Of a stretch of 64,000 bases of DNA, positions 35,382 through 50,989 are shown one piece after another; positions within the stretch are counted from its first letter, which is position 1, and every line of letters starts with the position of its first letter. Both the position numbers and the translations under genes were made by a program. The DNA lies in NCBI RefSeq assembly GCF_020991365.1, contig NZ_JAJLRA010000006.1, positions 1-64,000 of the forward strand, written 5' to 3'. Under the pieces are notes generated by a model. It was given only the letters and a program-made list of their open reading frames with translations. It had not been told where the DNA came from and made no database searches. The DNA is from Streptacidiphilus sp. ASG 303 (GTDB taxonomy: Bacteria > Actinomycetota > Actinomycetes > Streptomycetales > Streptomycetaceae).

Positions 35382-36614
35382 CTAACCGCCGTACCACGAG
35401 CACCCGCACGCGGGATGGAGGTCCGTCCGCAGGCGCCGCGCCATGCCGTCCGCCGCCGACAGCTCCATCACCCCGTCCACGCTGGGCGGCCGCAGTCCGT
35501 CCAGCAGCATCAGCACGTGCAGCGCCGCGAGCCCGGCGACGGCGGCCGCCAGGGCGGTGTCGCAGGCCGGCGTGCGGGCCCGGGCGGGACCGTCCGAGCA
35601 GAGCTGGGCCACCAGCCGGGCCCAGGCGGGGTCCCGGTCGCCCCGGTGCAGGGCGGCGCACCCGGCGCACGCGGACGCCCCCGGCAGCACCAGCGGCCCC
35701 ACCAGGCCCAGGTGCTCCGTCACGCCCGTCCACAGGTGGGGGACCCCCGCCCGCATCAGCTCACGGCCCTGCACCGGGTCCGTCGCGAGTCCGGCGGCGC
35801 AGTCGCGGGGCGCCAGCACCACCAGGTCCGGCCGCGAGCCGTCCGAGGGCGCCGCCCGGACGCCCCGCCCCACCGCGCGGTGCAGCGCCTCCCGGGCCGC
35901 GGTGGTGCGCAGCCGGCCGACGTCCTCCGGCGGCACCCCCGCAGGAGAGCAGTCGCCGGCGGACACCCGCCCGCCGTCCACCACGTCGACCCTGCCGACG
36001 CCCGCGGCCGCCAGCAGCGCCGCCGCGGCGGCGCCCACCCGGCCCGCGCCCCGCACCTGCACGAAGGCCCGGCTCCGGGCGGCCAGCAGCGCGGGCGCCG
36101 CCCCGGGCTCCGGGTGCACCAGGGAGAGGGAGGCCATGTCCGGGGCGAGCCGGCCGCGCTGCGCGGCGGGCAGCGGGGTGAGGGGCTGCTGCGCCCCCGC
36201 GTCGTCCAGCAGGCCCGCGCCGGCCAGCGACGCCAGGAACTCCCGGGCCGGCCCCGCGCCGACGCCCAGCCGCTCGCCCTCCGCAGCCAGCTCCTCGGTC
36301 CCCCTGCTGCCGTCGACCAGGTCCAGGAAGGCGCTCACGGCCGGCCCGACGCCGTCGAGCACGACCGCCCGCTCGGCCACGGCTCCGAACTGCAGTACGT
36401 CGCGGTCCCGCCAGACGCGGGGCAGCGCCCCCTTGAGCGCGGGCCTGGCCGCGGGCTCGGCCGCGCGTCCGGCCACGGGCTCGGCCGCGCGTCCGGCCAG
36501 GGGCCCGGCCGCAGGTCCGGCGGCGGGCTCTGCCGCAGGTCCGGCTGCGGGTCCGGCCGCGGTCACGGGCCTGCGCACGCGCTCGGTCAGGGTCTCGGTC
36601 ACGGGTCGGGACAT
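35382..36614 (-). CDS. ThiF/E1-like protein
   Basis: 410 residues from the ATG at 36614, which has GGAGG five bases upstream. The first 60 residues are PAAGPAAG-type repeats. A middle winged region (VDGSRGTEELAAEGERLGV) precedes a Rossmann-like domain VRGAGRVGAAAAALLAAAGV, then CAGCAALHRGDRDPAWARL and a terminal CGCSW, which together can bind zinc as in ThiF/MoeB. The N-terminal organisation resembles RiPP cyclodehydratase-type ThiF proteins, but no precursor peptide or YcaO gene is nearby. The classical adenylation Arg is not obvious. Function uncertain. Confidence 0.7.
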   Translation of the reverse strand: MSRPVTETLTERVRRPVTAAGPAAGPAAEPAAGPAAGPLAGRAAEPVAGRAAEPAARPALKGALPRVWRDRDVLQFGAVAERAVVLDGVGPAVSAFLDLVDGSRGTEELAAEGERLGVGAGPAREFLASLAGAGLLDDAGAQQPLTPLPAAQRGRLAPDMASLSLVHPEPGAAPALLAARSRAFVQVRGAGRVGAAAAALLAAAGVGRVDVVDGGRVSAGDCSPAGVPPEDVGRLRTTAAREALHRAVGRGVRAAPSDGSRPDLVVLAPRDCAAGLATDPVQGRELMRAGVPHLWTGVTEHLGLVGPLVLPGASACAGCAALHRGDRDPAWARLVAQLCSDGPARARTPACDTALAAAVAGLAALHVLMLLDGLRPPSVDGVMELSAADGMARRLRTDLHPACGCSWYGG

Positions 36615-36801
36615 CCGCCCCTCCTTTCGGCCACCCCCGCAGCATGCTGCGGGGGCGGTCCGGAGCGGAAGCCGGTCGTCCACAGGCCCCGGAGATCATC
36701 CGATCGTCTTCGCGCAGCCGGGGGACACCCTGTGGACAACCTCCGCCCGCCTCCGGCACGGAATCCGGCCGGGGCGGGGGACTTCTGTCATACCCACCGG
36801 G

Positions 36802-36814
36802 TAACGTCGTCGCC
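36802..36814 (+). promoter_or_regulatory. -10 element, leaderless metallopeptidase transcript
   Basis: TAACGT (36802-36807) lies seven bases before the GTG at 36815. No ribosome site is present, so the message is probably leaderless. Confidence 0.45.
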
Positions 36815-37507
36815 GTGGCAGCCGAAAGGGACCTCTCTTCCGCGGTGCCGCGTCGGCCTGCCCCCGACGGACCGGCGCGGCCCTCCGACCCCGGCGCGCA
36901 GGGCACGGCCCGGCGCGAGGCCGACGGGCGGGACGTCGAGGTGCGCCGCAGCGCCCGCCGCCGTCGCACCGTCTCCGCCTACCGCGAGGGCGACCGGACG
37001 GTCGTGCTCATCCCGGCCCGGATGTCCGCGGCCGAGGAGAAGCGCTGGGTCGCCCTGATGCTGGACAAGCTCGCCGCCCAGGAGAGCCGCCGCACCCTCG
37101 GCGACGAGGCCCTGGCCGCCCGCGCCCGCGAGCTGTCCGACCGGTACCTCGGCGGGCGGGCCGTGCCCGCCCGGGTCCGCTGGGTCACCAACCAGAACAC
37201 CCGCTGGGGGTCGTGCACCCCGGCCGAGCGGTCCATCCGGCTCTCCCACCGGCTGCAGGGCATGCCCGAGTACGTCGTCGACTACGTCCTGCTGCACGAG
37301 CTGGCCCACCTGCTGGTGTCCGACCACGGCCCCCGCTTCTGGGCCCTGCTGGAGGCGTACCCGCGCACCGAGCGGGCCCGCGGCTACCTGGAGGGGGTGG
37401 TCGCCGCCGCACGGCTCCCGCACCCGCCGGGAGGCGGCGCCGGGACCGGTCCCGCCGCCCCCGGCGCGGGGGAGCCGGCCGCCGTCCCGCACGAGGAGTG
37501 CGTCTGA
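36815..37507 (+). CDS. YgjP-like M48/SprT-type metallopeptidase
   Basis: 230 residues. The zinc site is HELAHLLVSDHGPRFW (HExxH plus a downstream His), preceded by the family segments WVTNQNTRWGSC and IRLSHRLQGMPEYVVDYVLL. This is the YgjP/DUF45 group of cytoplasmic metalloproteins with largely unknown substrates. The start follows the -10 at 36802. Divergent from the ThiF-like gene across about 200 bases. The tail after residue 195 is Pro/Gly/Ala-rich. Confidence 0.88.
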   Translation: MAAERDLSSAVPRRPAPDGPARPSDPGAQGTARREADGRDVEVRRSARRRRTVSAYREGDRTVVLIPARMSAAEEKRWVALMLDKLAAQESRRTLGDEALAARARELSDRYLGGRAVPARVRWVTNQNTRWGSCTPAERSIRLSHRLQGMPEYVVDYVLLHELAHLLVSDHGPRFWALLEAYPRTERARGYLEGVVAAARLPHPPGGGAGTGPAAPGAGEPAAVPHEECV

Positions 37508-37528
37508 CCGGACCGGGCCGCAGCCTCA

Positions 37529-37548
37529 CACCGCCCGACGGGGCGGTG
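37529..37548 (+). terminator. short hairpin between metallopeptidase and terD genes
   Basis: CACCGCCC pairs with GGGCGGTG around GACG. It follows the metallopeptidase stop by 21 bases and precedes TAGGGT (37550-37555), a -10 candidate for the TerD operon, so it might also influence that promoter. Confidence 0.45.
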
Positions 37549-37600
37549 CTAGGGTCGCCGGATCCGTGCCGGACCGCAGGGAGGGGAAGCACCGCCAGCC

Positions 37601-38986
37601 ATGACCAGGGAACTCGTCAAGGCAGCCAGGGTCCGCATCGGCGACCTCACCCCGGGCACCGACCTCTACATCGGCGTGCAGATCTCCGCCCCCGGACTGA
37701 GCTTCGACATCAGCTGCTTCGGCCTCGACGCCGCCGAGCGGCTGAGCGACGACCGCTACTTCGTCTTCTTCAACCAGCCCGCCTCGCCCGAGGGGTCGGT
37801 CCGGCTCCTCGGAGCCCAGTCCGGTGACACCGAGTCGTTCCGCCTGCTGCTGGACCAGGTGCCGGAGGCGGTCCACAAGCTGAGCCTCACCGCGACCGTC
37901 GACGGCGACGGGCGGATGTCCCAGGTCTCCGCCGGCTGCGTGCGCATCGTCGCCGGCGGCGAGGAGGTCGGCCGGTACTCCTTCACCGGGGCCGAGTTCA
38001 GCACCGAGCGCGCCGTGATGCTCGCCGACGTCTACCGCAAGGGCGGCGAGTGGCGGTTCGCCGCGGTCGGGCAGGGCTTCGACGGCGGGCTCCGCGCCCT
38101 GCTGGAGAACTTCGGCGGCGAGGTGCTGGAGGACGACGCGCCCCAGGCCCCCGCCCCGACCGTTCCCGCCCCGACCGTTCCCGCCCAGGCCGACCCTGCG
38201 GGGCCCGCCCGGGCCTCCGTGCCCGCGCCGGCCCCCGCACCCGCTCCGGCGGGCACGCCGGCCGGCGTCCCGGCGGGGTCCCCCGTGCCGCCGCACGCCC
38301 CCGCCCCAGCCCCCGCGCAGCAGCCGGGCGTCAAGGTGTCGCTGGTCAAGTACGCCGAGGTCCCCGAGCAGTCCGGCTGGGTGCAGCAGAACCCGAACCT
38401 GGTCCGGGTGACCGTCACCCAGGGCCGGGACGTCCTCGCCCTGCACGGCAGCATGGTCGCCTACCAGGGCAAGGCGGACTTCGCCCACGAGAGCTCCGGC
38501 ATGCTGCGCAGGCTCACCGCCAACCTCACCGGCCAGCAGCTCAGGCTCATGCGGGTCAGCGGCGAGGGCCAGGTCTTCCTCGCCGACGAGGCGTCCCAGC
38601 TGCACGTGGTGCGGCTGGAGGGCGACGCGCTCTGCGTCAGTGCCGACCGGGTGCTGGCCTTCGACGCCGGCATCGAGCACGAGGTGCGCCGGATCGAGGG
38701 CGAGGGACTGCCGAACGGCGGCCTCCACACCCTGATGTTCGGCGGCCACGGCACCGTCGTCATCAAGACGAACGGCACCCCCGTGGTGCTGCCCGTCACC
38801 CCGGCGCCCGAGACCCACGCCGACGCCCACGCCCTGGTCGCCTGGACCAGGGGCGCCCAGGTGATCACCACCGCCCCGGTCCGCATCCGCCGCTCCGCGT
38901 ACGCCGGCCACGCCGCCGAGTCGTACAGCCTGCAGTTCCGCGGCGCACCGGGGAACTTCATCGTCGTCCAGCCCTTCGAGGTCTGA
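37601..38986 (+). CDS. TerD-AIM24 fusion protein
   Basis: 461 residues. Residues 1-180 are a TerD domain (FDISCFGLDAAERLSDDRYF, FFNQPASPEGSV, SFTGAEFSTERAVMLADVYR) of the calcium-binding tellurite-resistance/stress family. A Pro/Ala linker with repeats (APTVP twice; about 185-245) joins it to a C-terminal AIM24 domain (HGSMVAYQGKADF, SGEGQVFLAD, HALVAWTRGAQV, NFIVVQPFEV). AIM24 is a beta-rich family of unknown biochemistry, named for a mitochondrial protein. First gene of a three-gene operon with two further AIM24 proteins; likely promoter -10 TAGGGT at 37550. Confidence 0.9.
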   Translation: MTRELVKAARVRIGDLTPGTDLYIGVQISAPGLSFDISCFGLDAAERLSDDRYFVFFNQPASPEGSVRLLGAQSGDTESFRLLLDQVPEAVHKLSLTATVDGDGRMSQVSAGCVRIVAGGEEVGRYSFTGAEFSTERAVMLADVYRKGGEWRFAAVGQGFDGGLRALLENFGGEVLEDDAPQAPAPTVPAPTVPAQADPAGPARASVPAPAPAPAPAGTPAGVPAGSPVPPHAPAPAPAQQPGVKVSLVKYAEVPEQSGWVQQNPNLVRVTVTQGRDVLALHGSMVAYQGKADFAHESSGMLRRLTANLTGQQLRLMRVSGEGQVFLADEASQLHVVRLEGDALCVSADRVLAFDAGIEHEVRRIEGEGLPNGGLHTLMFGGHGTVVIKTNGTPVVLPVTPAPETHADAHALVAWTRGAQVITTAPVRIRRSAYAGHAAESYSLQFRGAPGNFIVVQPFEV

Positions 38987-38999
38987 GAGGCCGCCGCCC

Positions 39000-39692
39000 A
39001 TGGACACGCAGCCGCTGCCCGGCCAGGGCATCGGGCACTTCGCCCCCGCCCCCACCGGCGCCCGGATGGCCAACCACGGGGCGGCCATGTGCCGGGTCGC
39101 CGTCACGGCGGGCCGCGACGTCTACGCCAAGCCCGGCGCCATGGTCGCCTACGAGGGCTTCCTGCAGTACGAGCCGCTCTCCCAGTCGTTCCGCAGCGCG
39201 CTGGGGGAGTGGGCGTCGGGGGAGCGCACCCCGCTGATGTCCTGGTCGGGCGACGGCACCCTCTACCTCGCCGATTACGGCGCCGACGTGCTGGTCCTCC
39301 AGCTCGACGACGAGTCCCTGTCGGTGAACGGCTCGCACCTCCTCGCGCTCGACGCCGGACTCGCCTGCCGGGTGGAGAAGGTCAAGGGGCCCGCCCTGCT
39401 GGCCGGCACCGGCCTGTACAACGTGACCGTCTCGGGCAGCGGCTGGATCGCCGTCACCTCCCGGGGCGTGCCGGTGGTGCTGGACTGCGCCGAGGCGGAG
39501 ACCTTCGTCGACCCGGACGCGCTGGTCGCCTGGACCACCGGGCTGAAGGTCAAGGCCCGCTCCACGCTGAAGGTCGGCGCCCTGATCGGCCGGGGCAGCG
39601 GCGAGGCGGTGCAGCTGGGCTTCGGCGGCTCCGGCTTCGTCGTGGTGCAGCCCAGCGAGGACACCTCCGACCGACTCAAGATCCGCGGCTGA
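39000..39692 (+). CDS. AIM24-family protein
   Basis: 230 residues, a single AIM24 domain with GAMVAYEGFLQYEPL, SGDGTLYLADYG, DALVAWTTGLKVK and GFVVVQPSED. It is a paralogue of the C-terminal half of the TerD fusion 13 bases upstream and of the next gene 17 bases downstream. GAGAGG lies before the ATG. The close spacing shows a shared transcript. The family has no catalytic motif that I can see; it may assemble as a beta-prism scaffold. Function unknown. Confidence 0.88.
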   Translation: MDTQPLPGQGIGHFAPAPTGARMANHGAAMCRVAVTAGRDVYAKPGAMVAYEGFLQYEPLSQSFRSALGEWASGERTPLMSWSGDGTLYLADYGADVLVLQLDDESLSVNGSHLLALDAGLACRVEKVKGPALLAGTGLYNVTVSGSGWIAVTSRGVPVVLDCAEAETFVDPDALVAWTTGLKVKARSTLKVGALIGRGSGEAVQLGFGGSGFVVVQPSEDTSDRLKIRG

Positions 39693-39709
39693 GCCAGGAG
39701 ACCGTCACC

Positions 39710-40414
39710 GTGCAGAGCCCCCTCTTCGGCCACACCGAGAACCGGACCGACGACCGCTACGCCCTGCAGAACCCGCAGATGCTGCGGGTCCGGCTGGACG
39801 GGCGCTCCGACGTGCTGGCCCGCAGCGGCGCCATGGTCGCCCACACCGGCCGGGTCGCCTTCACCGGCTGGACCCCGCCCGGCCAGGGCCGCCGCAGCGG
39901 CAACCCGCTGGTCCTGGAGCTGATGCGCTGCAGCGGCGAGGGGACGGTCTACCTGGCCAACCTCGCCCAGCACCTGCACATCCTCGACCTGCAGCGCGAG
40001 AAGCTGACCGTCACCAGCCCCTACGTCCTCGCGCTGGACTCCGCCGTCCGCTGGCAGGTCGTCAACATCCAGGGCGGCGAGCACATCGCGGGCGTCGGCG
40101 CGTACAGCCTGGAGCTGTCGGGCAGCGGCCGGGTGGTGCTGATGACCTCCGGGCAGCCGCTGGTGATGCGCGTCGAGCCCGGCGCGTACTGCTACGCGGA
40201 CGCCGACGCCGTGGTCGCCTGGTCCTCGCAGCTGGACGTCCAGCTCCAGGCCCAGAGCCGCAACACCGAGGTGTGGCGGCGCCGCGGGACCGCCACCGAG
40301 GGCTGGGAGATGGCGTTCTCCGGTTCGGGCTACGTCGTCGTCCAGCCCAGCGAGCTGCTGCCCCCGCAGCGCGTCCCGCTGCGCGTGCCGGCGGCCCGGC
40401 CCGGCCCCCGCTGA
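39710..40414 (+). CDS. AIM24-family protein, third member of the operon
   Basis: 234 residues from a GTG with GGAG nine bases upstream. AIM24 signatures: SGAMVAHTGRVAFTGW, SGEGTVYLANLAQ, ADAVVAWSSQLDVQ and YVVVQPSELLP. The N-terminus FGHTENRTDDRYALQNPQML differs from the paralogues. The three AIM24 domains have clearly diverged, so this is an old duplication likely making a hetero-oligomer. A hairpin at its stop separates it from the convergent NUDIX gene. Confidence 0.87.
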   Translation: MQSPLFGHTENRTDDRYALQNPQMLRVRLDGRSDVLARSGAMVAHTGRVAFTGWTPPGQGRRSGNPLVLELMRCSGEGTVYLANLAQHLHILDLQREKLTVTSPYVLALDSAVRWQVVNIQGGEHIAGVGAYSLELSGSGRVVLMTSGQPLVMRVEPGAYCYADADAVVAWSSQLDVQLQAQSRNTEVWRRRGTATEGWEMAFSGSGYVVVQPSELLPPQRVPLRVPAARPGPR

Positions 40415-40425
40415 CGGGGGGCCGG
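40401..40425. terminator. hairpin at the end of the AIM24 operon
   Basis: CCGGCCCCC pairs with GGGGGCCGG around a short loop that contains the stop codon. It lies between convergent genes. Confidence 0.5.
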
Positions 40426-40457
40426 GGCCGGGCGCGGCCTTCTCCGCGGCGGCGGCG

Positions 40458-41030
40458 TCAGCCGGTGAGCAGGCGGGCCCGCTCCACCAGTGCGCGCACC
40501 GAGCGGTCCGCGAGCTCGGGCAGCGCGCCGTAGTCGAACCAGCGCAGGTCCAGGGACTCCTCGCTGATCGCGGCCTCCGCCCCGGCCGGGGCGACGGCGA
40601 CGTACTGGACGTCCAGGTGGACGTTCTCCGGCCGGTCGCGCCCGGCGCAGCGCACCCGGTGCCGGTCCAGCCGCACCGGGGCGACGCCGTCGCCGGCGTC
40701 CAGCAGCACCAGGCCCGGGATGCCGGACTCCTCCGTCGCCTCCCGCAGGGCGGCGCCGGCCAGCGTGGCGTCCTCCGGCTCGCAGTGGCCGCCCATCTGC
40801 AGCCAGCGGCCCACCTTGGGGTGCAGCGTGAGGAGCACCCGACCGTGACCGGGGTCCACGACCACGGCGCTGGCGGTGACGTGCGCGGGGGTGCAGGACC
40901 GCCAGAGGCCGTCCCGGTGGGACGCGAGGTGCTCGATGTAGTCCAGCCGCAGCTGCTCCTGGCCGCCCTCGGGCGTGTCCGGTGCGGTCCAGTCCTTCAG
41001 TGCCCGGAGGGCGTCGTCGTGCAGCGTCAT
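40458..41030 (-). CDS. NUDIX hydrolase
   Basis: 190 residues. The Nudix box is GGHCEPEDATLAGAALREAT followed by EESGI; the usual GE before the box is replaced by CEPED. Upstream is HVTASAVVVDPGHGRVLLTLHPKVGRW, typical of standalone Nudix proteins of this size in actinomycetes. The substrate is unknown. The ATG overlaps the stop of the metalloprotease gene (ATGA), so they form an operon. Confidence 0.88.
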   Translation of the reverse strand: MTLHDDALRALKDWTAPDTPEGGQEQLRLDYIEHLASHRDGLWRSCTPAHVTASAVVVDPGHGRVLLTLHPKVGRWLQMGGHCEPEDATLAGAALREATEESGIPGLVLLDAGDGVAPVRLDRHRVRCAGRDRPENVHLDVQYVAVAPAGAEAAISEESLDLRWFDYGALPELADRSVRALVERARLLTG

Positions 41031-42637
41031 GCGGTGGGGTCGTCCTTCCCGTCGCCGGTCCCGCCGTCCGGGTCCTCCCCCGGGGGGGTCGGGCCGGTGC
41101 CCTTCTCCGGGCCGGGGCCATTCTCCCGCCCGGAGCCGCCCTCCTGCGCCTGCCCCGCGGTGCCGGGCTTCTCCAGGTCGGAGAAGTCGAAGCCGCTCAG
41201 GTCCAGCTCCTCACGGTGGACGAAGCCGTCCGGGTCGTCCAGGTCGTCCGCCGTGGGCAGCATGTCGGGGTGCCCCCAGAGGGCGTCGCGGCCCTCCAGG
41301 CCCCGCGCGTCGGCCAGCGACGCCCACAGCCGGGAGGCGTCCCGCAGCCGCCGCGGCCGCAGCTCCAGGCCGACCAGGGTGGCGAAGGTCTGCTCGGCGG
41401 GGCCGCCCGTCGCCCGGCGCCGCCGCAGCGTCTCGCGCAGTCCGGCGGCGTGCGGCAGGTGCGGGGACGCCGCGGCGTGGACCACCGCGTCGACCCAGCC
41501 CTCGACGAGCGCCAGCGCGGTCTCCAGCCGGGCCAGCGCCGCCTTCTGCTCCGGGGTGTCCTCCGGCTGGAAGACGCCGCCCTGCAGCGCCTCCTGCAGC
41601 GCCTCGGGGTTGGACGGGTCCAGCTCCCCGACCATGTCCTCCAGTCGCGCGGTGTCGACCCTGATGCCGCGGGCGTAGGCCTCCACGGCGCCGAACAGGT
41701 GCTGCCGCAGCCACGGCACGTGGGCGAAGAGCCGCTGGTGGGCGGCCTCGCGCAGGGCGAGGTACAGCCGGACCTCCTCGGCGGGGATGTCCAGCCCCTC
41801 CCCGAGCTTCTCGATGTTCTGCGGCAGCAGCGCCGCCTGGCGGGGCGGGCCCAGCGGCAGGCCGACGTCGGCCGAGCCGACCACCTCGCCCGCCAGGGCG
41901 CCCAGCGCCTGTCCGATCTGGGTGCCGAACATGGCGCCGCCCATGCTGCGCATCACGCCCAGCAGCGGGCCGGCCATGGCCTGCATCTCCTCGGGGACCA
42001 CGCCGCCCATGGCGCCGGCCACCTGCTCGGCGACCGGGTCGACGAGGTCCTTCCACACCGGGATGGTGGCCTCGATCCACTCCGCCCGGCTCCAGGCGAC
42101 GGCGGTGCCGGCGCCGGAGGGGAAGTCGGTCACCGAGTCCAGCCACAGGTCGGCGAGGCGCACGGCCTCGGCGACCGCGGCCCGCTCCGCGTCGCGCACC
42201 GAGCGGTCCTTGCCGCCGCCCTCGGCGTCGCCGGCGACCACGGTCTGCCGGGCGATGCCGGTGGCCAGGTCCCAGTTGACCGGGCCGCCCTCGAAGGAGA
42301 GCATCTGGCCGAGCTGCTGGAAGGCCGCCCCCAGGTCCGCCGGGTTGAAGGCGCCGCCCATCATGGCCGCGAACGGGTTGTCCGCCGGGCCGCCGGAGCC
42401 CGGGGCGCCGCCCATGCCGAACATCCCGGCGAGCGGGTTGCCGCCGAAGCCGAAGGGGTTCGGCGTGCCGCCGGGGCCCTGCCCCGGTCCGCCCTTCCCG
42501 CCGCCGGGACCCTCGCCGCCCGCGTTCTGGCCGCCGCCGGAGTTCTGGCCGGAGCCGGACCCCTCACCGCCCCTGCCGGGCTTTCCGTCCTCGGGCTCCT
42601 CAGGGGGGACACCGAATCCGAAGGGGATGTCGCTCAC
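41027..42637 (-). CDS. zinc-dependent metalloprotease family (DUF2342)
   Basis: 536 residues. The first 90 are Gly/Pro/Asn-rich (GSGSGQNSGGGQNAGGEG). The conserved core includes PVNWDLATGIARQTVVAGD, MFGTQIGQALGALAGEVVGS, the segment YLALREAAHQRLFAHVPWL and a Glu-rich C-terminal part. This is the actinobacterial DUF2342 family labelled zinc-dependent metalloprotease; its motif REAAHQRLF keeps E and H but is not a strict HExxH, so activity is uncertain. A GTG nine codons upstream (42664) is an alternative start. Divergent from the SDR gene. Confidence 0.82.
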   Translation of the reverse strand: MSDIPFGFGVPPEEPEDGKPGRGGEGSGSGQNSGGGQNAGGEGPGGGKGGPGQGPGGTPNPFGFGGNPLAGMFGMGGAPGSGGPADNPFAAMMGGAFNPADLGAAFQQLGQMLSFEGGPVNWDLATGIARQTVVAGDAEGGGKDRSVRDAERAAVAEAVRLADLWLDSVTDFPSGAGTAVAWSRAEWIEATIPVWKDLVDPVAEQVAGAMGGVVPEEMQAMAGPLLGVMRSMGGAMFGTQIGQALGALAGEVVGSADVGLPLGPPRQAALLPQNIEKLGEGLDIPAEEVRLYLALREAAHQRLFAHVPWLRQHLFGAVEAYARGIRVDTARLEDMVGELDPSNPEALQEALQGGVFQPEDTPEQKAALARLETALALVEGWVDAVVHAAASPHLPHAAGLRETLRRRRATGGPAEQTFATLVGLELRPRRLRDASRLWASLADARGLEGRDALWGHPDMLPTADDLDDPDGFVHREELDLSGFDFSDLEKPGTAGQAQEGGSGRENGPGPEKGTGPTPPGEDPDGGTGDGKDDPTA

Positions 42638-42790
42638 GAGTTCCTCGATCTCGTCGGCCGTCACTGCATGCTGTGGCGGGTATGGCCCGTCCGAGGTTCC
42701 GTGCGGCTCCGCCGCGGCGCGGGCGGCCTTGTCGGCGGCCTGCCCGTGCCGGGTGCACCGCCATGCCCTCGCCTCGGGCAGGATGGTCGG

Positions 42791-42805
42791 TACGTGACAC
42801 ACGTA
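42791..42805. promoter_or_regulatory. inverted repeat in a divergent promoter region
   Basis: TACGTG-ACA-CACGTA is a perfect 6-3-6 inverted repeat 35 bases before the SDR start and about 150 bases before the divergent metalloprotease start. A further GTACGTAC overlaps its right end. It may be an operator; no regulator is adjacent. Confidence 0.45.
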
Positions 42806-42839
42806 CGTACGCAACAAAACTAACCGTGGAGGATGGCCG

Positions 42840-44102
42840 GTGAGTTCCCCGCCTTCGGACGTTCGCTCTGGGCTGACCGGGGATGCCGGGCCGACCGGGG
42901 ACGGCGGCCCGGCGGAGGGCGCGGGCCCGGCCGGCGACGGCGGTCCGGTCGGCGACGGTCCCGCAGGCCGCGGGGCCGGGGAGCACGCGGACGCCTCGCC
43001 CGGCGCCGCCGCCCGCCCGGCCGCCGCCCCCGTGCCGTACGACGGCAGGCCCCTGGTGGTCGCCGTCACCGGCGCGGCCTCCGGCCTCGGCCGGCTGCTG
43101 GCCGCCCGCCTGGTCGAGTCGCCCGGCGTGCGCCGGGTCCTCGGCGTCGACGAGCGCCGCGGCGACGTCCCCGGCGTGCACTGGCGCGTGCTGGACGTCC
43201 GGGACCCCGCCGTCGCCGAGCGGCTGCGGGGCGCCGACGTCGTGGTCCACCTCGCCCTGGACCTCGGCATGGAGTCCGACCCCAAGGTCCGCTCCGCCTA
43301 CAACGTGCGCGGCACCCAGACCGTGCTCACCGCCGCCGCGGCCGCCGGGGTGCACCGGGTGGTCCTCTGCACCTCCGCCATGGTCTACGGCGCGCTGCCC
43401 GACAACGAGGTGCCGCTCGCGGAGGACGCCGAACTGCGCGCCACGGAGGAGGCATCCCTCGTCGGCGACCTGCTGGAGGTCGAGCGGCTCGGCCGGCGCG
43501 CCCCCCGCGCCCACCCCGGGCTCAACGTCACCGTGCTGCGCCCGGCCGTGGTGGTCGGGCCCGGCGTCGACACCGTCCTCACCCGGCACTTCGAGGCGCC
43601 CCGGCTGCTGGTGGTTGCCGGCTCCCGGCCGTGCTGGCAGTTCTGCCACGTCGACGACCTGGCCTCCGCCCTGGAGTACGCCGTGCTCGGCCGCGTCGAG
43701 GGCGAGGTCACGGTGGGCTGCGACGGCTGGCTGGAGCAGGAGGAGGTGGAGCAGCTCTCCGGCATCCGGCGGATGGAGCTGCCCGCCTCGCTGGCGCTCG
43801 GCACCGCGGCCCGGCTCCACCGGCTGGGCCTCACCCCGGCCCCCGCCGGGGACCTGGCGTACACCATGTACCCGTGGGTGGTCTCCGGCAGCCGGCTCCA
43901 CGAGGCCGGCTGGCGCCCGGTCCACACCAACGAGGAGGTGCTGGCCGAGCTGCTCGCCCAGGTGGAGGGCAACCACGCGGTGGCCGGGCGCCGCCTCGGC
44001 GGCAAGGACGCCGCCACCACGCTGGGCGCGGCGGGCGCCACGGTGGCGCTGGTGGGCACGGCCGCGCTGGTCCGCCGGGCGCGCCGCCGCCGCCGCGCCT
44101 GA
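42840..44102 (+). CDS. NAD-dependent epimerase/SDR-type oxidoreductase
   Basis: 420 residues. A disordered Gly/Pro/Asp tail (about 1-70, repeats of GDGGP) precedes an extended-SDR Rossmann domain with VTGAASGLGRLLAARLV, VLDVRDPAV, VVVHLALDLG, LCTSAMVYGALPDNE and LRPAVVVGPG. The catalytic pair appears as Tyr in VYGA and a following basic region rather than a strict YxxxK, so dehydrogenase activity is uncertain. A C-terminal hydrophobic segment GAAGATVALVGTAALV with Arg stop-transfer residues suggests a membrane anchor. GGAGG precedes the GTG. Confidence 0.82.
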   Translation: MSSPPSDVRSGLTGDAGPTGDGGPAEGAGPAGDGGPVGDGPAGRGAGEHADASPGAAARPAAAPVPYDGRPLVVAVTGAASGLGRLLAARLVESPGVRRVLGVDERRGDVPGVHWRVLDVRDPAVAERLRGADVVVHLALDLGMESDPKVRSAYNVRGTQTVLTAAAAAGVHRVVLCTSAMVYGALPDNEVPLAEDAELRATEEASLVGDLLEVERLGRRAPRAHPGLNVTVLRPAVVVGPGVDTVLTRHFEAPRLLVVAGSRPCWQFCHVDDLASALEYAVLGRVEGEVTVGCDGWLEQEEVEQLSGIRRMELPASLALGTAARLHRLGLTPAPAGDLAYTMYPWVVSGSRLHEAGWRPVHTNEEVLAELLAQVEGNHAVAGRRLGGKDAATTLGAAGATVALVGTAALVRRARRRRRA

Positions 44103-44361
44103 CCGGCGCCCGCAGCGCCGGGCCCGCCCGTGCGCGGCCGCGCTCCGGCCCCGCCCCCGGTCCCGCCCGGTACCGGCCCCGCCCCCACGCCCCGCGCCCT
44201 GTCCGGCGCCGCTCCCGCGCCCTCTCCGGCCCCGGCCCCGCGCCCTGTCCGGCCCCCGTCCGGCCGTGCGCATGGCCCGACCCGGTGACATCCCTGGCCC
44301 GACCCGGTGACGCGCCGGACCCGACGGGGTTGATCTTGCGGGGGCTGTCGGGGGGAGGCCG
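44103..44361. other. intergenic region without a gene
   Basis: GC-rich sequence with repeated CCGGCCCCGCCCC-like units (44140-44270) and two copies of TGGCCCGACCCGGTGAC near 44274-44311. I see no coding region or RNA gene. Confidence 0.5.
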
Positions 44362-44374
44362 TATCGTAGGGGCC
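44362..44374 (+). promoter_or_regulatory. -10 element, leaderless moaE transcript
   Basis: TATCGT (44362-44367) lies seven bases before the moaE ATG. There is no ribosome site. Confidence 0.5.
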
Positions 44375-44809
44375 ATGCCGGAGATCCCCGACCCCGTCCG
44401 CCTGCTCGCGCTGCGCGACACGCCGCTCTCCCTCGACGAGGTGTACGCGGCCGTCGGCGACACCGCGGCCGGCGGCACCGCCGTCTTCGTGGGCACCGTC
44501 CGCGACCACGACGGCGGCCGGCCGGTGACCTCCCTGGCGTACAGCGCCCACCCCACCGCCGAGCGCGAGCTGCGCCGGGTCGCGGAGAAGGTCGCGGCGG
44601 ACTTCCCGGTCCGCGCGCTCGCCGCCGTGCACCGGGTGGGCGACCTGGAGGTGACGGACACCGCGGTGATCGTCGCCGTCTCCTGCCCGCACCGGGCGGA
44701 GGCGTTCGAGGCGTGCCGCCGCCTGATCGACGACCTCAAGCACGAGGTCCCGATCTGGAAGCACCAGGTGTTCGCGGACGGCGGGGAGGAGTGGGTCGGC
44801 GCCTGCTGA
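44375..44809 (+). CDS. moaE: molybdopterin synthase catalytic subunit MoaE
   Basis: 144 residues, full length for MoaE. Conserved segments: GGTAVFVGTVRDHDGGR, LAAVHRVGDLEVTDTAVIVA, CPHRAEAFEACRRLIDDLKH with the active-site Lys region, and VPIWKHQVFADGGEEW. With MoaD it converts cPMP to molybdopterin in molybdenum cofactor synthesis. No moaD or other moa gene is adjacent, so it is an isolated unit, as is common in Streptomyces. Confidence 0.93.
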   Translation: MPEIPDPVRLLALRDTPLSLDEVYAAVGDTAAGGTAVFVGTVRDHDGGRPVTSLAYSAHPTAERELRRVAEKVAADFPVRALAAVHRVGDLEVTDTAVIVAVSCPHRAEAFEACRRLIDDLKHEVPIWKHQVFADGGEEWVGAC

Positions 44810-44942
44810 CCCCGGCCCGCCGCCGTCTCCGGCCCCGCCCGGGGCCGTCACCCGTCCGGGCGAATACGGGGCCGGGGCGCCGTCTGCGTCCCCCGGTCCG
44901 GTGGATAATCTGCTCATAGGCATCTGAGCTGGGAGTACGGGT

Positions 44943-45125
44943 ATGGGCGCGCTCGCCTGGTTGGTCATTCCGGTCGTCGCGGTGGTCGCCGCCGCGCTGT
45001 GGGCCGCCTGGGCCGCCAGGCCGCCGAAGGCGACCGGCGACGGCGCCTCGCTGGCCGACTACGAGCGCTTCCGGGCCGCCATGGAGCGCAGCACCGCCGC
45101 GCCAGTACCCGCCGAGCGGGGCTGA
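44943..45125 (+). CDS. small single-pass membrane protein
   Basis: 60 residues: one N-terminal hydrophobic helix (WLVIPVVAVVAAALWAAWAA) then a charged tail with ADYERFRAAMER. GGGAG lies before the ATG and a GATAAT -10-like element (44904-44909) upstream. Small proteins of this type precede PDZ-domain Lon-like proteases in Streptomyces; its gene is 60 bases from one here. A role with that protease is inference. Confidence 0.7.
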   Translation: MGALAWLVIPVVAVVAAALWAAWAARPPKATGDGASLADYERFRAAMERSTAAPVPAERG

Positions 45126-45173
45126 TCCCTGCCGGGTGCGAGGGCCGGGACGCGCAGGCCCGTTCCCGTCCCG

Positions 45174-45185
45174 TACTGTCGTGGC
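45174..45185 (+). promoter_or_regulatory. -10 element, leaderless protease transcript
   Basis: TACTGT (45174-45179) lies six bases before the ATG at 45186. No ribosome site is present. Confidence 0.5.
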
Positions 45186-46250
45186 ATGCCACGCCGCTCT
45201 GCGACGATGCTCGCCGCGACCCTGCTGCTCATAGCGATGCTGTGCGCCTCCGTGCTGCCGGCCATGAAGGTCCCGTACTCGGAGATGAGCCCGGGCCCCA
45301 CCTACAACACGCTGGGGCAGCAGAACGGCAAGCCGGTGATCAGCATCACCGGGCAGCGGACCTACCCGACCAGCGGGCACCTCAACATGACCACGGTCCA
45401 GGTCACCAGCGCCGACTACCAGCCGAGCCTGGTCTCCGCCGTCATCGGCTGGCTGCGCAACGACGTCGCCGTCGTCCCGCACGACAACCTCTACCCGGAC
45501 CACCAGACCGAGCAGGAGGCCGAGCAGCAGAACGCGGAGGAGTTCGCCTCCTCGCAGGACAGTGCCAAGGCCGCCGCCCTCCGCGAGCTCGGCTACAAGG
45601 TGGGGACCGACGTGATCGTCGGCTCGGTCGTCGCCGGCTCGCCCTCCCAGGGCCGGCTGCACGCGGGCGACACCGTCAAGGCCGTGGACGGCACCGCCGT
45701 CACCGCGCCGGAGCAGGTCGCCAAGCTCGTCACCCGCCACCGCCCCGGCCAGCCGGTCGTCTTCACCGTGGTCCCGAACGGGAAGGCCGCCTCCGCGGCC
45801 CGCAAGGTGACCGTCACCACCGTCAAGGCCCCCGACGGCGACCGCGCCATGGTGGGCATCCAGCCCGGCACCAAGCACACCTTCCCGTTCAGCATCGACA
45901 TCGGCCTGCAGGACGTCGGGGGGCCGAGCGCGGGGCTGATGTTCTCCCTCGGCATCGTCGACAAGCTGAAGCCGTCCGACATCACCGGCGGGAAGTTCGT
46001 CGCCGGCACGGGCACCATCACCGACGCGGGCAGGGTCGGCCCGATCGGCGGCATCTCCATGAAGACCATCGCCGCCCGCAACGCGGGGGCGCAGTACTTC
46101 CTCACCCCGGCCGAGAACTGCGCCGAGGCCGCCAGGGACACCCCGGCGGGACTCACCCTGGTGAAGGTGGAGACCCTGCACGGCGCGCTCGAGGCGCTGG
46201 ACGCCATCCGCACCGGCGACACCGCCGCGCTGCCGTCCTGCTCCCGCTGA
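45186..46250 (+). CDS. PDZ-domain Lon-like (S16) membrane-anchored serine protease
   Basis: 354 residues. An N-terminal membrane anchor (about 8-27) is followed by the family segment VPYSEMSPGPTYNTLG, a PDZ domain (about 140-215) and a Lon-type proteolytic domain. The Ser-Lys dyad is visible as DVGGPSAGLMFSL (Ser) and GGISMKTIAARNAGA (Lys). It probably acts on the outer face of the membrane in envelope quality control. The substrate is unknown. Terminator and convergent PPA1309 gene follow. Confidence 0.9.
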   Translation: MPRRSATMLAATLLLIAMLCASVLPAMKVPYSEMSPGPTYNTLGQQNGKPVISITGQRTYPTSGHLNMTTVQVTSADYQPSLVSAVIGWLRNDVAVVPHDNLYPDHQTEQEAEQQNAEEFASSQDSAKAAALRELGYKVGTDVIVGSVVAGSPSQGRLHAGDTVKAVDGTAVTAPEQVAKLVTRHRPGQPVVFTVVPNGKAASAARKVTVTTVKAPDGDRAMVGIQPGTKHTFPFSIDIGLQDVGGPSAGLMFSLGIVDKLKPSDITGGKFVAGTGTITDAGRVGPIGGISMKTIAARNAGAQYFLTPAENCAEAARDTPAGLTLVKVETLHGALEALDAIRTGDTAALPSCSR

Positions 46251-46287
46251 CGGCGGCCCGCTCCCGCCGGTGCCCGGAGGCCCGCTG

Positions 46288-46311
46288 ACGGCCCGGCGCC
46301 CGCCGGGCCGT
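46288..46311. terminator. terminator between convergent genes
   Basis: ACGGCCCGGCG pairs perfectly with CGCCGGGCCGT with almost no loop. It lies between the Lon-like protease and PPA1309 genes. Confidence 0.6.
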
Positions 46312-46337
46312 CCGGAGGGTGCGCCGGCCGCGCAGGA

Positions 46338-46898
46338 TCAGGCGAAGGTCGCCAGCAGCGCCTCGGAGAGGCCCGGGACCAGGCTCTCGCCGGTCAGCAC
46401 CTCGCGGGCCGAGTCCTTCGACCGCAGCCGCAGCGCCGTCTCCCGGGAGCCGTCGCGCAGCACCGCCGCCGTGATCCGCACCTCCTGGCGCTCGGGGTGC
46501 TCGGCCACCCACGCGGCGAGCTGCTGCTCGTCCGCCCCCTCGGGCAGCTTCGCCTCGGCGTCCGGCGGCAGCATCAGCCGCTCCACCACCAGCGCGCAGC
46601 CGGACACCACGTCCGGCCAGGCGATGGTGCCGAGGAAGTCGTCGAGCGCCGCGCCCTCGGGCAGCTCGTCCTGTTCCACGGGCGTCAGGCCGCCGGGCTC
46701 GGCGCCCTCCAGCCCCAGCTGCTCGGCCAGGGCGGGCTCGCTGCTCAGCAGGCGGCCGGTGTCCACCAGGGCGAAGAGCCGCGCGGGCAGGTCCCAGCCC
46801 AGGGTGGCCGCGTAGCCGTCGATCTCCAGCACGGCGCGGGTCAGCGGGGTCGCGGCGGGGGGCAGGGCCGCGTCGGGGGTCTCGGGGTGCTCGGACAT
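46338..46898 (-). CDS. PPA1309-family protein
   Basis: 186 residues matching the actinobacterial PPA1309 family: LTRAVLEIDGYAATLGWDLP, ARLFALVDTGRLL, EFLGTIAWPD-like DDFLGTIAWPDVVSGCALVV, and DGSRETALRLRSKD. The family is conserved near the UPF0182 gene and has no known function. I chose the ATG at 46898 because it begins SEHPETPDAALPPAA, directly before the conserved region. Divergent from UPF0182 across a repeat-rich gap. Confidence 0.85.
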   Translation of the reverse strand: MSEHPETPDAALPPAATPLTRAVLEIDGYAATLGWDLPARLFALVDTGRLLSSEPALAEQLGLEGAEPGGLTPVEQDELPEGAALDDFLGTIAWPDVVSGCALVVERLMLPPDAEAKLPEGADEQQLAAWVAEHPERQEVRITAAVLRDGSRETALRLRSKDSAREVLTGESLVPGLSEALLATFA

Positions 46899-46953
46899 GG
46901 CCCTATCCTCACACGCCCGGCGGCCCCCGCCCCCCTCCAGGAGGCCCCCGGTC

Positions 46954-47019
46954 CGCGCCCCGCCCGGCCCGCCCCCGCGCCCCGCCCGGCCCGCCCCCGC
47001 GCCCCGCCCGCCCCGTCCC
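46954..47019. repeat. 22-bp GC-rich tandem repeats
   Basis: Two full copies of a 22-base unit beginning CGCGCCCCGCCCGGCC (46954-46975, 46976-46997) and a decayed third. They lie upstream of PPA1309 and of the UPF0182 promoter region. Confidence 0.7.
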
Positions 47020-47120
47020 CGCGCCCCGCTCCCGCCGGGCGCCGCGGAGTCCGGGGGCCGGTAATCCGGGAGCCCCGGGAACTCGGCCGAATGCCGGGTA
47101 AGTTGCCTATCTGACGCTGA

Positions 47121-47160
47121 CCGACCCACCGACCCACCGACCCACCGACCCACCGACCCA
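47121..47160. repeat. 8-bp microsatellite before the UPF0182 gene
   Basis: Five perfect tandem copies of CCGACCCA end 21 bases before the chosen TTG start. They fall between a possible -10 (TAAGTT, 47099-47104) and the gene, so likely in its 5' leader. Confidence 0.9.
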
Positions 47161-47181
47161 CTGACGACAGAGGTGTGCACC

Positions 47182-50178
47182 TTGGTATTCCAGATGCCGG
47201 ACCGCGGAGGGGCGGGGCCCTCCGGACCCCGGTTCAGAGTCGGCGCGTCCTCCCGGCGCTCCCGCGCCCTGCTGCTGACCGCCGGCGTGCTCGCGGTGCT
47301 GGCACTCCTCTTCGCCGTCTTCGCCGGGTTCTGGACCGACTGGCTCTGGTACCGCTCGCTGCACTACTCCTCGGTGTTCACCACCCGGCTGTGGACCAAG
47401 ACCGGGCTCTTCGCGGTTTTCGGCCTGCTGATGGCCCTGACCGTCGGGCTGAACATCTGGCTCGCCCACCGCCTGCGCCCGCCGCTGAGCGCGATGTCCC
47501 CGGAGCAGCAGGGCCTCGACCGCTACCGCATGGGCGTCGCCCCCTACCGCCGCTGGGTGCTGCTGGGCGCCTCCGTGGTCACCGGCCTCATCGCCGGCGC
47601 CGCGGCGACCGGCCGCTGGCGTACCTGGCTCCAGTGGGTCAACGGCACCTCCTTCGGCACCCGGGACCCCCAGTTCCACAAGGACGTCTCCTTCTACGCC
47701 TTCGACCTGCCCTGGTACCGCTTCCTGCTCGACTTCGGCTTCAGCGCCGTGGTCGTCGCGCTGCTCGCCGCCGTGCTGGTGCACTACCTGTACGGGGGGC
47801 TGCGGCTGCAGGGCCCGGGGCGGCGGGTCTCCACCGCCGCGCAGGGCCACCTCGCGGTGCTGCTGGGCGTCTTCGTGGCGCTCAAGGCGGTCGCGTACTG
47901 GCTGGACCGGTACGGGCTGGCGCTCAAGTCCGGCGCCATCCGCGGCACCGACAGCTGGACCGGCCTGCGCTACGTCGACGCCAACGCCTACCTGCCGGCC
48001 AAGACCATCCTCTGCTGCGTCGCCGTCATCTGCGCGCTGCTCTTCCTCGTCACGCCGCTGCGCCGCACCTGGACGCTCCCGCTGGTCGGCTTCGGCCTGA
48101 TGGTGCTCTCCGCGCTGCTGATCGGCGGGCTGTACCCGGCGATCGTGCAGCAGTTCCAGGTCAAGCCCAACGAGGCGAGCAAGGAGGCGCCGTACATCCG
48201 GAAGAACATCGACGCCACCAGGGCCGCCTACGGCATCGACGGGACGAGGGTCCAGCAGTACAGGGCCGCCGTCGACCCGGACCGCGCGGCGCTCGACAAG
48301 GACACCGCCACGCTCGGGAACATCCGCGTGCTGGACCCCAACATCGTGTCGCCCACCTTCACCCAGCGCGAGCAGCAGCGGTCCTACTACTCCTTCGCCT
48401 CGCCGCTGGACATCGACCGCTACGGCTCCGGCGCCGGCGTCCAGGACACCGTGATCGGCCTGCGCGAGCTCAACCTCGCTGGCGTCCCCAGCCGCAACTG
48501 GGTCAACGACCACTTCAAGTACACCCACGGCTACGCGGCCGTGACCGCCAAGGGCAACACCGTCGGCCCGGACGGCGACCCGGTCTTCACCGAGTCCGGC
48601 CTGCCGCCCCGGGGGCAGTTCCCCGCGGACACCAGGTGGCGCGTCTACTTCGGCGAGCGGACCACCGCGTACTCCGTCGTCGGCGGCTCCAACAAGGAGC
48701 TCGACTACTACGACCGTGACGCGGGCAAGGAGGTCACCTACACCTACGACGGCGGCGGCGGCGTCTCCCTGGACAACCCGCTCACCCGGGCCGCCTACGC
48801 GGTGAAGTTCTCCGAGCCGCAGCTGCTGTACTCCGGGGCGATCACCCCCGGCGCCAGGATCCTGTACGACCGCACCCCCAAGGAGCGCGTCGAGGCCGTG
48901 GCCCCCTGGCTGTCCATCGACGGCGACCCGTACCCCGTCGTGGTCGGCGGCAAGGTGAAGTGGGTGGTGGACGGCTACACCACCAGCAACGGCTACCCCT
49001 ACGCCTCCCGCACCACCCTGGGCGACGTCACCGCCGACTCCCTCACCGCCGACGGGCGGCAGGTCCTGGCCCAGGCCGACCGGGTCAACTACATCCGCAA
49101 CTCGGTCAAGGCCACCGTCGACGCCTTCACCGGCGAGGTCACCCTCTACCAGTGGGACGAGCGCGACCCGGTGCTGAGGACCTGGATGAAGTCCTTCCCC
49201 GGCACGGTGAAGCCCCGGTCCGCCATCGACCCGGCCCTGATGCAGCACCTGCGCTACCCGCAGGACCTCTTCAAGGTGCAGCGCGACCTGCTGACCCGCT
49301 ACCACGTCACCGACCCGGCCGCGTTCTACGCCGGCAGCGACGTGTGGAAGGTGCCGACCGACCCGACCCGCGAGAACCGCGCCGACCAGCCCCCGTACTA
49401 CCTGACGGTGCGGATGCCGGGCGAGCAGGCGGCGTTCTCGCTCACCACCAGCTTCGTGCCGTCCAGCAGGCAGAACCTGGCGGCCTTCATGGCGGTGAAC
49501 GCCAACCCCGGGCCGGACTACGGCAGGATGCACATCCTGACCATGCCGGAGCGCAGCGGGGACCAGGCGGTCCGCGGTCCGCAGCAGGTGCAGGCGAAGT
49601 TCAACTCCGACCCGCGCATCGCCTACGACATCAACCTGCTCAAGCAGGGCGACTCCTCGCTGGAGTACGGCAACCTGCTGACCCTCCCGGTCGGCGACGG
49701 CCTGCTCTACGTGGAGCCGGTCTACGTGCGCGGCAAGAACATCAACTACCCGCAGCTGAAGAAGGTGCTCGCCGTCTACGGCGGCAGCGACAACGTCGCC
49801 TACGCGGACACCCTCAAGGAGGCGCTGCAGCAGGTGCTCAAGGTGGACGCCGGCACCGTGCCGGAGCCCGGCGGCACCGCGCCGCCGTCCGGCGGGACGC
49901 CGACCGCGCCGGGTTCGCCCACCGGCCCGGCGGGCCCCGCGAACCCCGCGGTGCAGAAGGCGCTGGACGACGCGCAGGCGGCCTTCCAGGCCGGCCAGGA
50001 GGCGCTCCGGAAGGGCGACTGGGCCGCGTACGGCGAGCAGCAGAAGAAGCTCCGGGACGCGCTCGACGCGGCGGTGAAGGCCCAGCGGCCGTCCGGTTCG
50101 CCGTCCCCCGCGCCGTCCGGTTCGCCGTCCCCCGCGCCCTCGGGGGCGCCCTCGCCCGCACCGAGCCCCACGCCGTGA
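47182..50178 (+). CDS. UPF0182-family large membrane protein
   Basis: About 998 residues. Seven hydrophobic segments in the first 330 residues (first near 30-55, with [15 protein letters not shown] after it) precede a long extracytoplasmic region with [36 protein letters not shown] and [19 protein letters not shown]. These are signatures of UPF0182, a conserved actinobacterial family with no known function. The tail is Pro/Ser/Gly-rich. Start is uncertain: TTG at 47182 has AGAGG eight bases upstream; GTG 47173 and ATG 47194 are alternatives. An 8-base microsatellite lies just upstream. Confidence 0.88.
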
Positions 50179-50226
50179 CGGCGGGGCGGGGGGCGTCCGG
50201 CGTGACGCCCCCCGCCCGGGACGTGC

Positions 50227-50232
50227 TACGGT
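50227..50232 (+). promoter_or_regulatory. promoter -10 of the first initiator tRNA gene
   Basis: TACGGT lies 13 bases before the tRNA, in GTGCTACGGTTGAGACACAA. The same block, GTGCTACGGTTGGGACACAA, precedes copies two and three. Confidence 0.6.
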
Positions 50233-50245
50233 TGAGACACAACGA

Positions 50246-50319
50246 CGCGGGGTGGAGCAGCTCGGTAGCTCGCTGGGCTCATAACCCAGAGGTCGCAGGT
50301 TCAAATCCTGTCCCCGCTA
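50246..50319 (+). tRNA. initiator tRNA-fMet (CAT), copy 1
   Basis: 74 bases without encoded CCA. The CAT anticodon sits in CTGGG-CTCATAA-CCCAG, whose three G-C pairs are an initiator hallmark. The acceptor begins C1 and ends with T at position 72, so the first pair is mismatched, the second hallmark. D-arm GAGCAGCTCGGTAGCTC and T-arm CAGGTTCAAATCCTG are complete. This tRNA carries formyl-Met to start translation. Confidence 0.97.
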
Positions 50320-50325
50320 CTCCGT

Positions 50326-50364
50326 CGGAAGGCCCGGTGCGCCAGCACCGGGCCTTCCGCTTTT
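50326..50364 (+). terminator. terminator of initiator tRNA copy 1
   Basis: CGGAAGGCCCGGTGC and its perfect complement form a 15-bp stem around GCCA, followed by CTTTT. It begins seven bases after the tRNA. Confidence 0.9.
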
Positions 50365-50592
50365 CCCGGTTGCGGTTGCGGTCCGGGCTGCGGTTCCGGC
50401 TCCTGCCTCCTTTCCCGGCGGCCCGGGCCTTCCCCTCCCCGGATCCCCGGCCGCCGCCGCGGCGGCTTTCCGCGGCCCCTTCCCGCCGGTTCCCCGGAAC
50501 TCCGGCAGTCCGCGCGAAGGGGGTGCGGAGCGGTGCGGCGGAAAGCGATTCGTGATCACGGCGGAACGCGTGCTACGGTTGGGACACAACGA

Positions 50593-50666
50593 CGCGGGGT
50601 GGAGCAGCTCGGTAGCTCGCTGGGCTCATAACCCAGAGGTCGCAGGTTCAAATCCTGTCCCCGCTA
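50593..50666 (+). tRNA. initiator tRNA-fMet (CAT), copy 2
   Basis: Identical in all 74 bases to copy 1, 347 bases downstream. It has the same CTACGGTTGGGACACAAC promoter block and the same type of terminator, so it is an independent transcription unit made by tandem duplication. Confidence 0.97.
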
Positions 50667-50672
50667 CTCCGT

Positions 50673-50710
50673 CGGAAGGCCCGGTGCGCCAGCACCGGGC
50701 CTTCCGCTTT
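50673..50710 (+). terminator. terminator of initiator tRNA copy 2
   Basis: Same 15-bp stem and GCCA loop as the first terminator, followed by CTTTG. Confidence 0.85.
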
Positions 50711-50983: not shown

Positions 50984-50989
50984 CTGCGT

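Follow-up and report, generated by a model that had tools for sequence, protein, structure and literature searches.

Genes for AIM24 proteins are frequent neighbours of TerD genes, as stated in the available part of a PeerJ paper of 2018 (PMC5822837, citing Anantharaman et al. 2012), and in yeast the integrity of the MICOS membrane complex requires Aim24, with which it interacts, according to the abstract of PMC3975624. The TerD protein of Klebsiella pneumoniae binds two calcium ions, the ligands of which are listed in the excerpt of PMC8779313. We analysed 64,000 nucleotides of the genome of Streptacidiphilus sp. ASG 303 (contig NZ_JAJLRA010000006.1, positions 1 to 64,000; hereafter called the window), which contain three consecutive genes encoding a TerD-AIM24 fusion (gene 1) and two further AIM24 paralogues (genes 2 and 3; Table 1). 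The initial annotation considered that this module could be an undescribed system. This holds for the three-gene arrangement, insofar as no description of it was found in the AIM24 literature surveyed (in which the older name DUF124 was covered in part), but not for the association of TerD with AIM24, which is already in print (PMC5822837, same part) and of which the module is a variant.

The reading of the genes as a TerD-AIM24 fusion followed by two tandem AIM24 paralogues was borne out by Pfam matches far above the cut-offs. The TerD half of gene 1 scored 128 bits with PF02342 (cut-off 25.3), and PF01987 was matched over nearly the full domain by genes 1, 2, and 3 (88, 111, and 94 bits, respectively; cut-off 25.7). 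By these domain matches and by the predicted fold of the gene 2 product, the proteins resemble the AIM24 family (PF01987; 1pg6, 1yox, and yeast Aim24), but the module differs from it in having three co-inherited paralogues, one of them fused to TerD, all of which stay below the cut-off (96.6 bits) of TIGR00266, an NCBIfam model within AIM24 (19, 39, and 32 bits for genes 1 to 3). No membrane segment was apparent in the three products (top 19-residue hydropathy mean of at most 1.21). Among the relatives compared, the TerD domain of the module is closest to that of TerF: it shared 46% and 45% identity with TerF-type proteins of Allochromatium tepidum and Deinococcus taeanensis, each of which has a vWA-TerF-like domain, versus 30–38% with canonical TerD copies. 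Both TerF-type proteins came from the top plasmid matches; the annotation reads 'VWA domain-containing' for several of these and 'TerD family' for others. TerF consists of TerD and vWA (PF10138) halves, whereas gene 1 had no vWA match and carries an AIM24 half instead. The module TerD domain also shares its Pfam family and fold with calcium-binding TerD proteins (2kxt/2kxv from K. pneumoniae; 3ibz, TerD of S. coelicolor), but the calcium-binding loop is deleted in all 91 module copies examined.

In the terZABCDEF operon, TerB/TerC and further TerD genes are clustered, whereas none of the seven neighbouring proteins of the module matched a Ter family. TerD and AIM24 are also adjacent or joined in the ter clusters with AIM24 neighbours (PMC5822837, same part) and in three lone TerD-AIM24 fusions (L108, L109, and L136). 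Two of the latter (L108 and L109, from genus g28 of family f4) differ, however, by a separate origin in the AIM24 tree, the AIM24 domain of the third (L136, outside the tree) was matched best by the model for single AIM24 genes, and the stretches around all three were devoid of an AIM24 trio. The L136 fusion (4610–5989) is on a plasmid of D. taeanensis, near TerD and TerF-type genes. At another locus (L121, 4419–5753), in a genome taken to be Streptomyces, TerD is fused to CAP (cysteine-rich secretory family) directly ahead of a single AIM24 gene.

That genes 1 to 3 form a unit is well supported by their distribution. We surveyed 61 Streptomycetaceae genomes, calling orthologues of gene 1 at an E value of 1e-50 or better, of gene 2 at 327 bits or more (the next match having 179 bits), and of gene 3 at 337 bits or more. 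All three genes were present in the same 32 genomes and all three were missing at these thresholds from the remaining 29, many of which contained weaker AIM24 matches, e.g. to the second AIM24 triplet described below (module B). The initial annotation had named frequent occurrence of the three genes apart as the observation that would speak against it; no genome was found with just one or two of them, and additional copies always occurred beside a full set. In all 32 carriers the genes were in order on one contig and strand, with spacings by match of 15–50 and 30–40 bp, the TerD part being truncated at a contig end in one of them (G167). Carriers made up 9/9 genomes of genus g2 (taken to be Streptomyces), 3/9 of g83, and 1/3 of the window's own genus, and there were none in g73.

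Further evidence was obtained from relatives of gene 1, of which the best 80 of 394 loci were retained. Three AIM24 domains in the same order were found in 68 of these 80 loci. The contig ended shortly past the TerD domain in seven and 0.6 kb past the second AIM24 domain in L033, and the third AIM24 domain was split in two pieces in L012. The remaining three loci (L036, L038, and L062), as well as two of the 68 in which the reading frame differs between TerD and the first AIM24 domain (L041 and L054), are described below. Some genomes are represented twice (L044/L178, L040/L153, L005/L184, L039/L185, and L037/L095), so locus counts do not equal independent genomes. The closest named relative of gene 1 among these best 80 matches was that of Kitasatospora indigofera, with 78% identity. 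A chance array is excluded, because the identical gene order was found again in many other genomes. The three genes are likely to form one operon, because they are separated by gaps of only 13 and 17 bp on the same strand and a GGAG-like stretch lies ahead of the starts of both gene 2 and gene 3.

The module also comes and goes as a whole. All 15 genomes tested without the module at this location, consisting of 12 of the 29 non-carriers and of three (G199–G201, loci L002–L004) with the module elsewhere, had the left and right neighbours side by side, 17–489 bp apart. In Frankiaceae (our group f16, its name being inferred), the module stands beside genes that we read from sequence as aldo-keto reductase-like and Ntn-hydrolase-like, the latter without a Pfam match. 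In a class-wide sample (threshold 1e-60), 62 of 296 genomes matched. These comprised 28 genomes of the family (27 from g2, plus that of the window) and 24 of f16. Of the other 10, two (f4, g28) carried the lone fusion of separate origin, and the remaining eight matched in part, mostly over a single domain. A phylum-wide sample (1e-70) gave 11 matches in 246 genomes, eight in the family, two in f4 g28, and one over the TerD part only. On the basis of these samples, the distribution of the module found here comprises Streptomycetaceae, Frankiaceae, and Virgisporangium. We also considered spread by plasmids; 143 plasmid records matched gene 1 at 1e-20, none of them covering 80% of the gene. An AIM24 protein 39% identical to the gene 2 product (P0002) is encoded in a phage-like record without annotation (MT835541.1, 9806–10414), which originates from human faecal samples.

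In Streptomyces, the three AIM24 domains exist in two forms, which were found to change together. Using L013 (type I) and L018 (type II) as references, we typed 122 loci. All three domains were of type I in 79 loci and of type II in 13, while 18 were of neither type throughout (the window, Kitasatospora-like, Embleya-like, and Frankia relatives, some other genera, and L169 of g2). Eight loci had no AIM24 domain in the stretch, three gave partial data of neither type, and in L183 two domains were of type I and the third fell slightly short of the cut-off. None of the 93 loci with typed domains combined types I and II. The 27 g2 genomes of the class-wide sample included 23 of type I, 3 of type II, and 1 of neither. 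Carriers of type II (L007, L014, L018, and L071) include S. ipomoeae, S. caniscabiei, S. scabiei, and S. acidiscabies, which are plant-associated scab or soil-rot streptomycetes; the names of the other type II carriers give no such indication.

In the reference pair, types I and II shared 60%, 57%, and 55% identity in A1, A2, and A3 (the AIM24 domains of genes 1, 2, and 3), versus 89% in the TerD half, 84% in the YgjP gene, 86% in the ABC1 gene, 78% in the NUDIX gene, and 87% in the SDR gene. The ThiF gene, two genes leftward, was at 59% in this pair; it varies widely within types and shows no split by type. Sliding identity fell inside the linker of gene 1, within which the exchanged block starts in Streptomyces, and recovered at the NUDIX gene past A3. 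One change of type was needed on each of the AIM24 trees, three on the TerD tree (77 and 12 loci), and five on the flank tree (88 of the 92 loci typed I-I-I or II-II-II), where strongly supported branches force three of the five. When 57 trios, including those of other genera, were placed in one tree, type II grouped with the Kitasatospora-like trios, to which that of the window belongs (support 98). Trees placing type II with the 14 flank-nearest type I Streptomyces, or with all sampled type I Streptomyces, were rejected (p value of the approximately unbiased test, p-AU, of 0.00014 and 0.0016, respectively), and a constraint on the AIM24 tree that keeps the other genera together gave a p-AU of 0.325. 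The grouping of type II with the Kitasatospora-like trios and the rejection of its flank-based placement show that at least one replacement of the whole AIM24 trio occurred, with the TerD half largely left in place. The trees suggest more than one such event. Horizontal transfer is the simplest route; an old second copy followed by differential loss is possible. Block exchange of the three domains fits a hetero-oligomer, and co-adaptation of the trio is likely, although it is not the sole reading, since homologous recombination also favours joins in conserved flanks.

The three AIM24 paralogues are distinct. In a tree of 121 of the 293 labelled AIM24 domains (the pieces of the L012 third gene being left out), A2 and A3 each formed a single clade (support 79 and 99), as did A1 (99) once extra lone fusions of Virgisporangium were included. 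The genome of the window has a second AIM24 triplet, module B (C167:211103-213197; L081 6930-9282), which likewise consists of three tandem AIM24 genes with one clade each (B1, B2, and B3) across families. It differs from the module of the window (module A) in being without TerD, in having other neighbours, namely a gene for a DUF2127 membrane protein and one that we read from sequence as MarR-like, and in resulting from a separate triplication according to the tree. Two separately formed and long-kept triplets suggest that the AIM24 fold works as an oligomer. In Frankiaceae and in module B, the third AIM24 protein has a long Gly/Pro-rich, often Tyr-rich N-terminal extension, which is missing from the window's A3 (Table 1).

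Structure models were made of single chains of the products of genes 1 and 2. In the former, the TerD and AIM24 domains mostly had a predicted local distance difference test score (pLDDT) >70 and the linker mostly <50 (mean 76; predicted template modelling score 0.46). The domains matched TerD 3ibz (Foldseek E value 4e-12) and AIM24 structures 1pg6 and 1yox. The gene 2 model (mean 82) aligned with 1yox_F with a Z score of 17.8 over 168 residues (3.6 Å) and with 1pg6 with a Z score of 17.6 over 196 residues (4.5 Å). The top Foldseek match of the whole gene 1 model was 9a6r_B, titled an integrative model of GLPD-SCP2 from crosslinking mass spectrometry, which may point to a partner for domains of the TerD type.

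A single protein machine is probable because, in streptomycetes and Frankia, the three genes share their presence and absence and have been relocated and exchanged jointly. We consider it an even bet that this machine is an AIM24 hetero-oligomer with a tethered TerF-like TerD domain, docked to Ter-type stress machinery. Three non-interchangeable AIM24 subunits would assemble into an obligate hetero-oligomer, most simply with one of each; such physical assembly is likely. In one subunit, a flexible Pro/Ala-rich tether would hold the TerF-like TerD domain, AIM24 taking the place of the vWA domain of TerF. The AIM24 core would be the co-adapted part and would probably bind, on the cytoplasmic side, to the surface of a membrane or of a protein, while the tethered TerD domain would probably dock this core to the Ter-type stress machinery of the cell. 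A role as a stress scaffold is suggested by relatives, i.e. by yeast Aim24 and MICOS (excerpt of PMC3975624) and by the TerD-AIM24 neighbourhoods (available part of PMC5822837).

Several observations weigh against this assembled, Ter-docked machine. There are no Ter genes near the operon among the seven neighbouring proteins searched with Pfam. The TerD part and the first AIM24 domain are in different frames in L041 and L054. In L062, what comes after the TerD half, starting with the linker, is unrelated sequence; our guess is that the assembly was misjoined in the linker, which is repetitive. Lone fusions are seen at L036 and L038, in Virgisporangium genomes (outside the 61), which hold the full module, with all three AIM24 types, elsewhere. 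Eight further A3-like copies (275–324 bits) were found in seven of the 61 genomes, from two genera, each with the full module as well, and the three of these copies that were examined had no other module genes adjacent; these extra copies and the lone fusions suggest that some subunits can work apart. (L131, L132, and L133 are extra A3-like copies in g72 and g75, besides the full module.) As to the exchange, adjacent genes can move together by linkage alone, and homologous recombination is expected to join in conserved flanks and not in a core with about 65% DNA identity. On the flank tree, the test did not reject type II having arisen once (p-AU 0.119), which leaves few independent exchanges, and the groups of the 57-trio constraint test were named after the flank tree had been seen.

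An alternative is that the proteins are three diverged paralogues, each homo-oligomeric with its own job, which are kept together by co-regulation and short-range linkage. We regard it as unlikely, though as the best of the competing explanations. The extra A3-like copies and the two lone fusions agree with it, genomes with a single AIM24 match are common in the rest of the class, and adjacency alone can yield block exchange. It does not readily account, however, for the lack of genomes with a subset of the genes, for the lack of mixed trios, or for the order being kept in Frankiaceae and Virgisporangium despite other surroundings.

It is rather doubtful that the AIM24 trio is an exchangeable allelic head, selected for variety in recognition or competition and flexibly tethered to a constant TerF-like adaptor as its handle. 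Still less probable, in our view, is an anti-phage or inter-strain recognition system with the trio under diversifying selection. Two deeply split AIM24 forms block-exchanged at one site, a patchy presence in the family, and weak TIR-type PADLOC matches about 2–3 kb from two Frankiaceae modules (L035 11561-12838 and L095 12361-13001) would be in keeping with such a system, but none of the three proteins has a PADLOC match and the nine carriers among nine g2 genomes of the family survey are closer to what is seen with a core gene, as are the 27 g2 genomes among the matches listed in the class-wide survey (214 non-matches being unlisted).

The initial annotation had also proposed a hetero-oligomeric scaffold that responds to calcium or envelope stress. 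We compared the calcium ligand positions of TerD (40–42, 78, 79, and 89, and 29, 82, 84, and 88), of which nine, all but 29, were covered. Positions 78, 79, and 82, in the canonical calcium loop, were deleted in 91/91 module copies; position 84 was Q or R, and position 88 was T, S, A, or H. One Asp of the 40/42 pair (in an FDLD motif, aligned to 42) was kept in 91/91 copies and Glu 89 in 78/91. All nine positions were kept in four canonical TerD copies, three of them from the same genome as the module. Calcium sensing by the module TerD domain is unlikely because most of the mapped ligands are deleted or replaced. A calcium-responsive scaffold, in which TerD would bind calcium and switch the AIM24 assembly, is accordingly the least probable of the explanations considered here: the precedent of K. 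pneumoniae TerD (excerpt of PMC8779313) and the conserved Asp and Glu favour it, but it conflicts with the loss of the loop, the replacements at 84 and 88, the TerF-like character of the domain, and the intact ligands of the canonical copies in the same genome.

Upstream of the Streptomyces operon (loci among L006–L080), we observed a direct repeat, TGTACCG-N4-TGTACCG, with an 11-bp period, which resembles response-regulator sites. This pattern, picked after viewing the sequences, was exact in 34 of 74 upstream regions, with no other exact occurrence in the 1.08 Mb of these loci. If one mismatch is tolerated, it is present in 47 of the 74, mostly 44 bp (30 regions) or 54 bp (12 regions) before a TTAGCCT element. 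It was absent upstream in the window and in L001–L005 with up to three mismatches. MtrA was considered as the regulator and set aside, since it shares the 11-bp period but the bases do not exactly fit the published consensus (PMC5650626 and PMC13189361, in the parts available). No sigma-70-like promoter was found in 36700–41200, which is a poor test for this organism.

The coordinates of the features are collected in Table 1. Gene 1 is the sole TerD match on its own contig. By Pfam, the genes on the left side are ABC1 kinase-like, ThiF-like, and YgjP/SprT-like metallopeptidase genes, and those on the right side NUDIX, zincin-like, NAD-dependent epimerase-like, and PDZ-Lon genes; farther left, WhiB-like and UvrD-like genes were identified from sequence reading. 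At Rfam gathering scores, the only RNA elements in 36500–51200 were tRNAs, and three tandem tRNA-Met (CAT) genes are present at 50246–50984 of the window.

Table 1. Features of the TerD-AIM24 module and its surroundings (positions in the window, or in the locus named)
Feature	Position	Strand	Remarks
Gene 1, TerD-AIM24 fusion	37601..38986	+	ATG start, 461 aa
TerF-like TerD domain, gene 1 residues 1-171	37601..38113	+	Canonical TerD calcium-binding loop deleted
Pro/Ala-rich linker, gene 1 residues 175-243	38123..38329	+	22 Pro and 20 Ala in 69 residues; mostly low-confidence in model
AIM24 domain A1, gene 1 residues 264-458	38390..38974	+	PF01987
Gene 2, AIM24 paralogue A2 (P0002)	39000..39692	+	ATG start, 230 aa
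Gene 3, AIM24 paralogue A3	39710..40414	+	GTG start, 234 aa
Left neighbour, YgjP/SprT-like metallopeptidase gene	36644..37507	+	Open reading frame as listed, start uncertain; left edge of module site
Right neighbour, NUDIX hydrolase gene	40458..41030	-	Right edge of module site
N-terminally extended third AIM24 proteins	L035 8415-9449; L095 5497-6693; L098 4985-6121; L081 6930-7922		

These results mean that a 'TerD' annotation is not in itself evidence of calcium binding. If the AIM24 trio were indeed selected for variety, the module would be a Ter-linked device of a new design. The module offers a compact, genetically tractable case in Streptomyces of three AIM24 subunits that are inherited as one unit, in which the natural empty sites provide controls and the two natural AIM24 forms may tell which parts must match.

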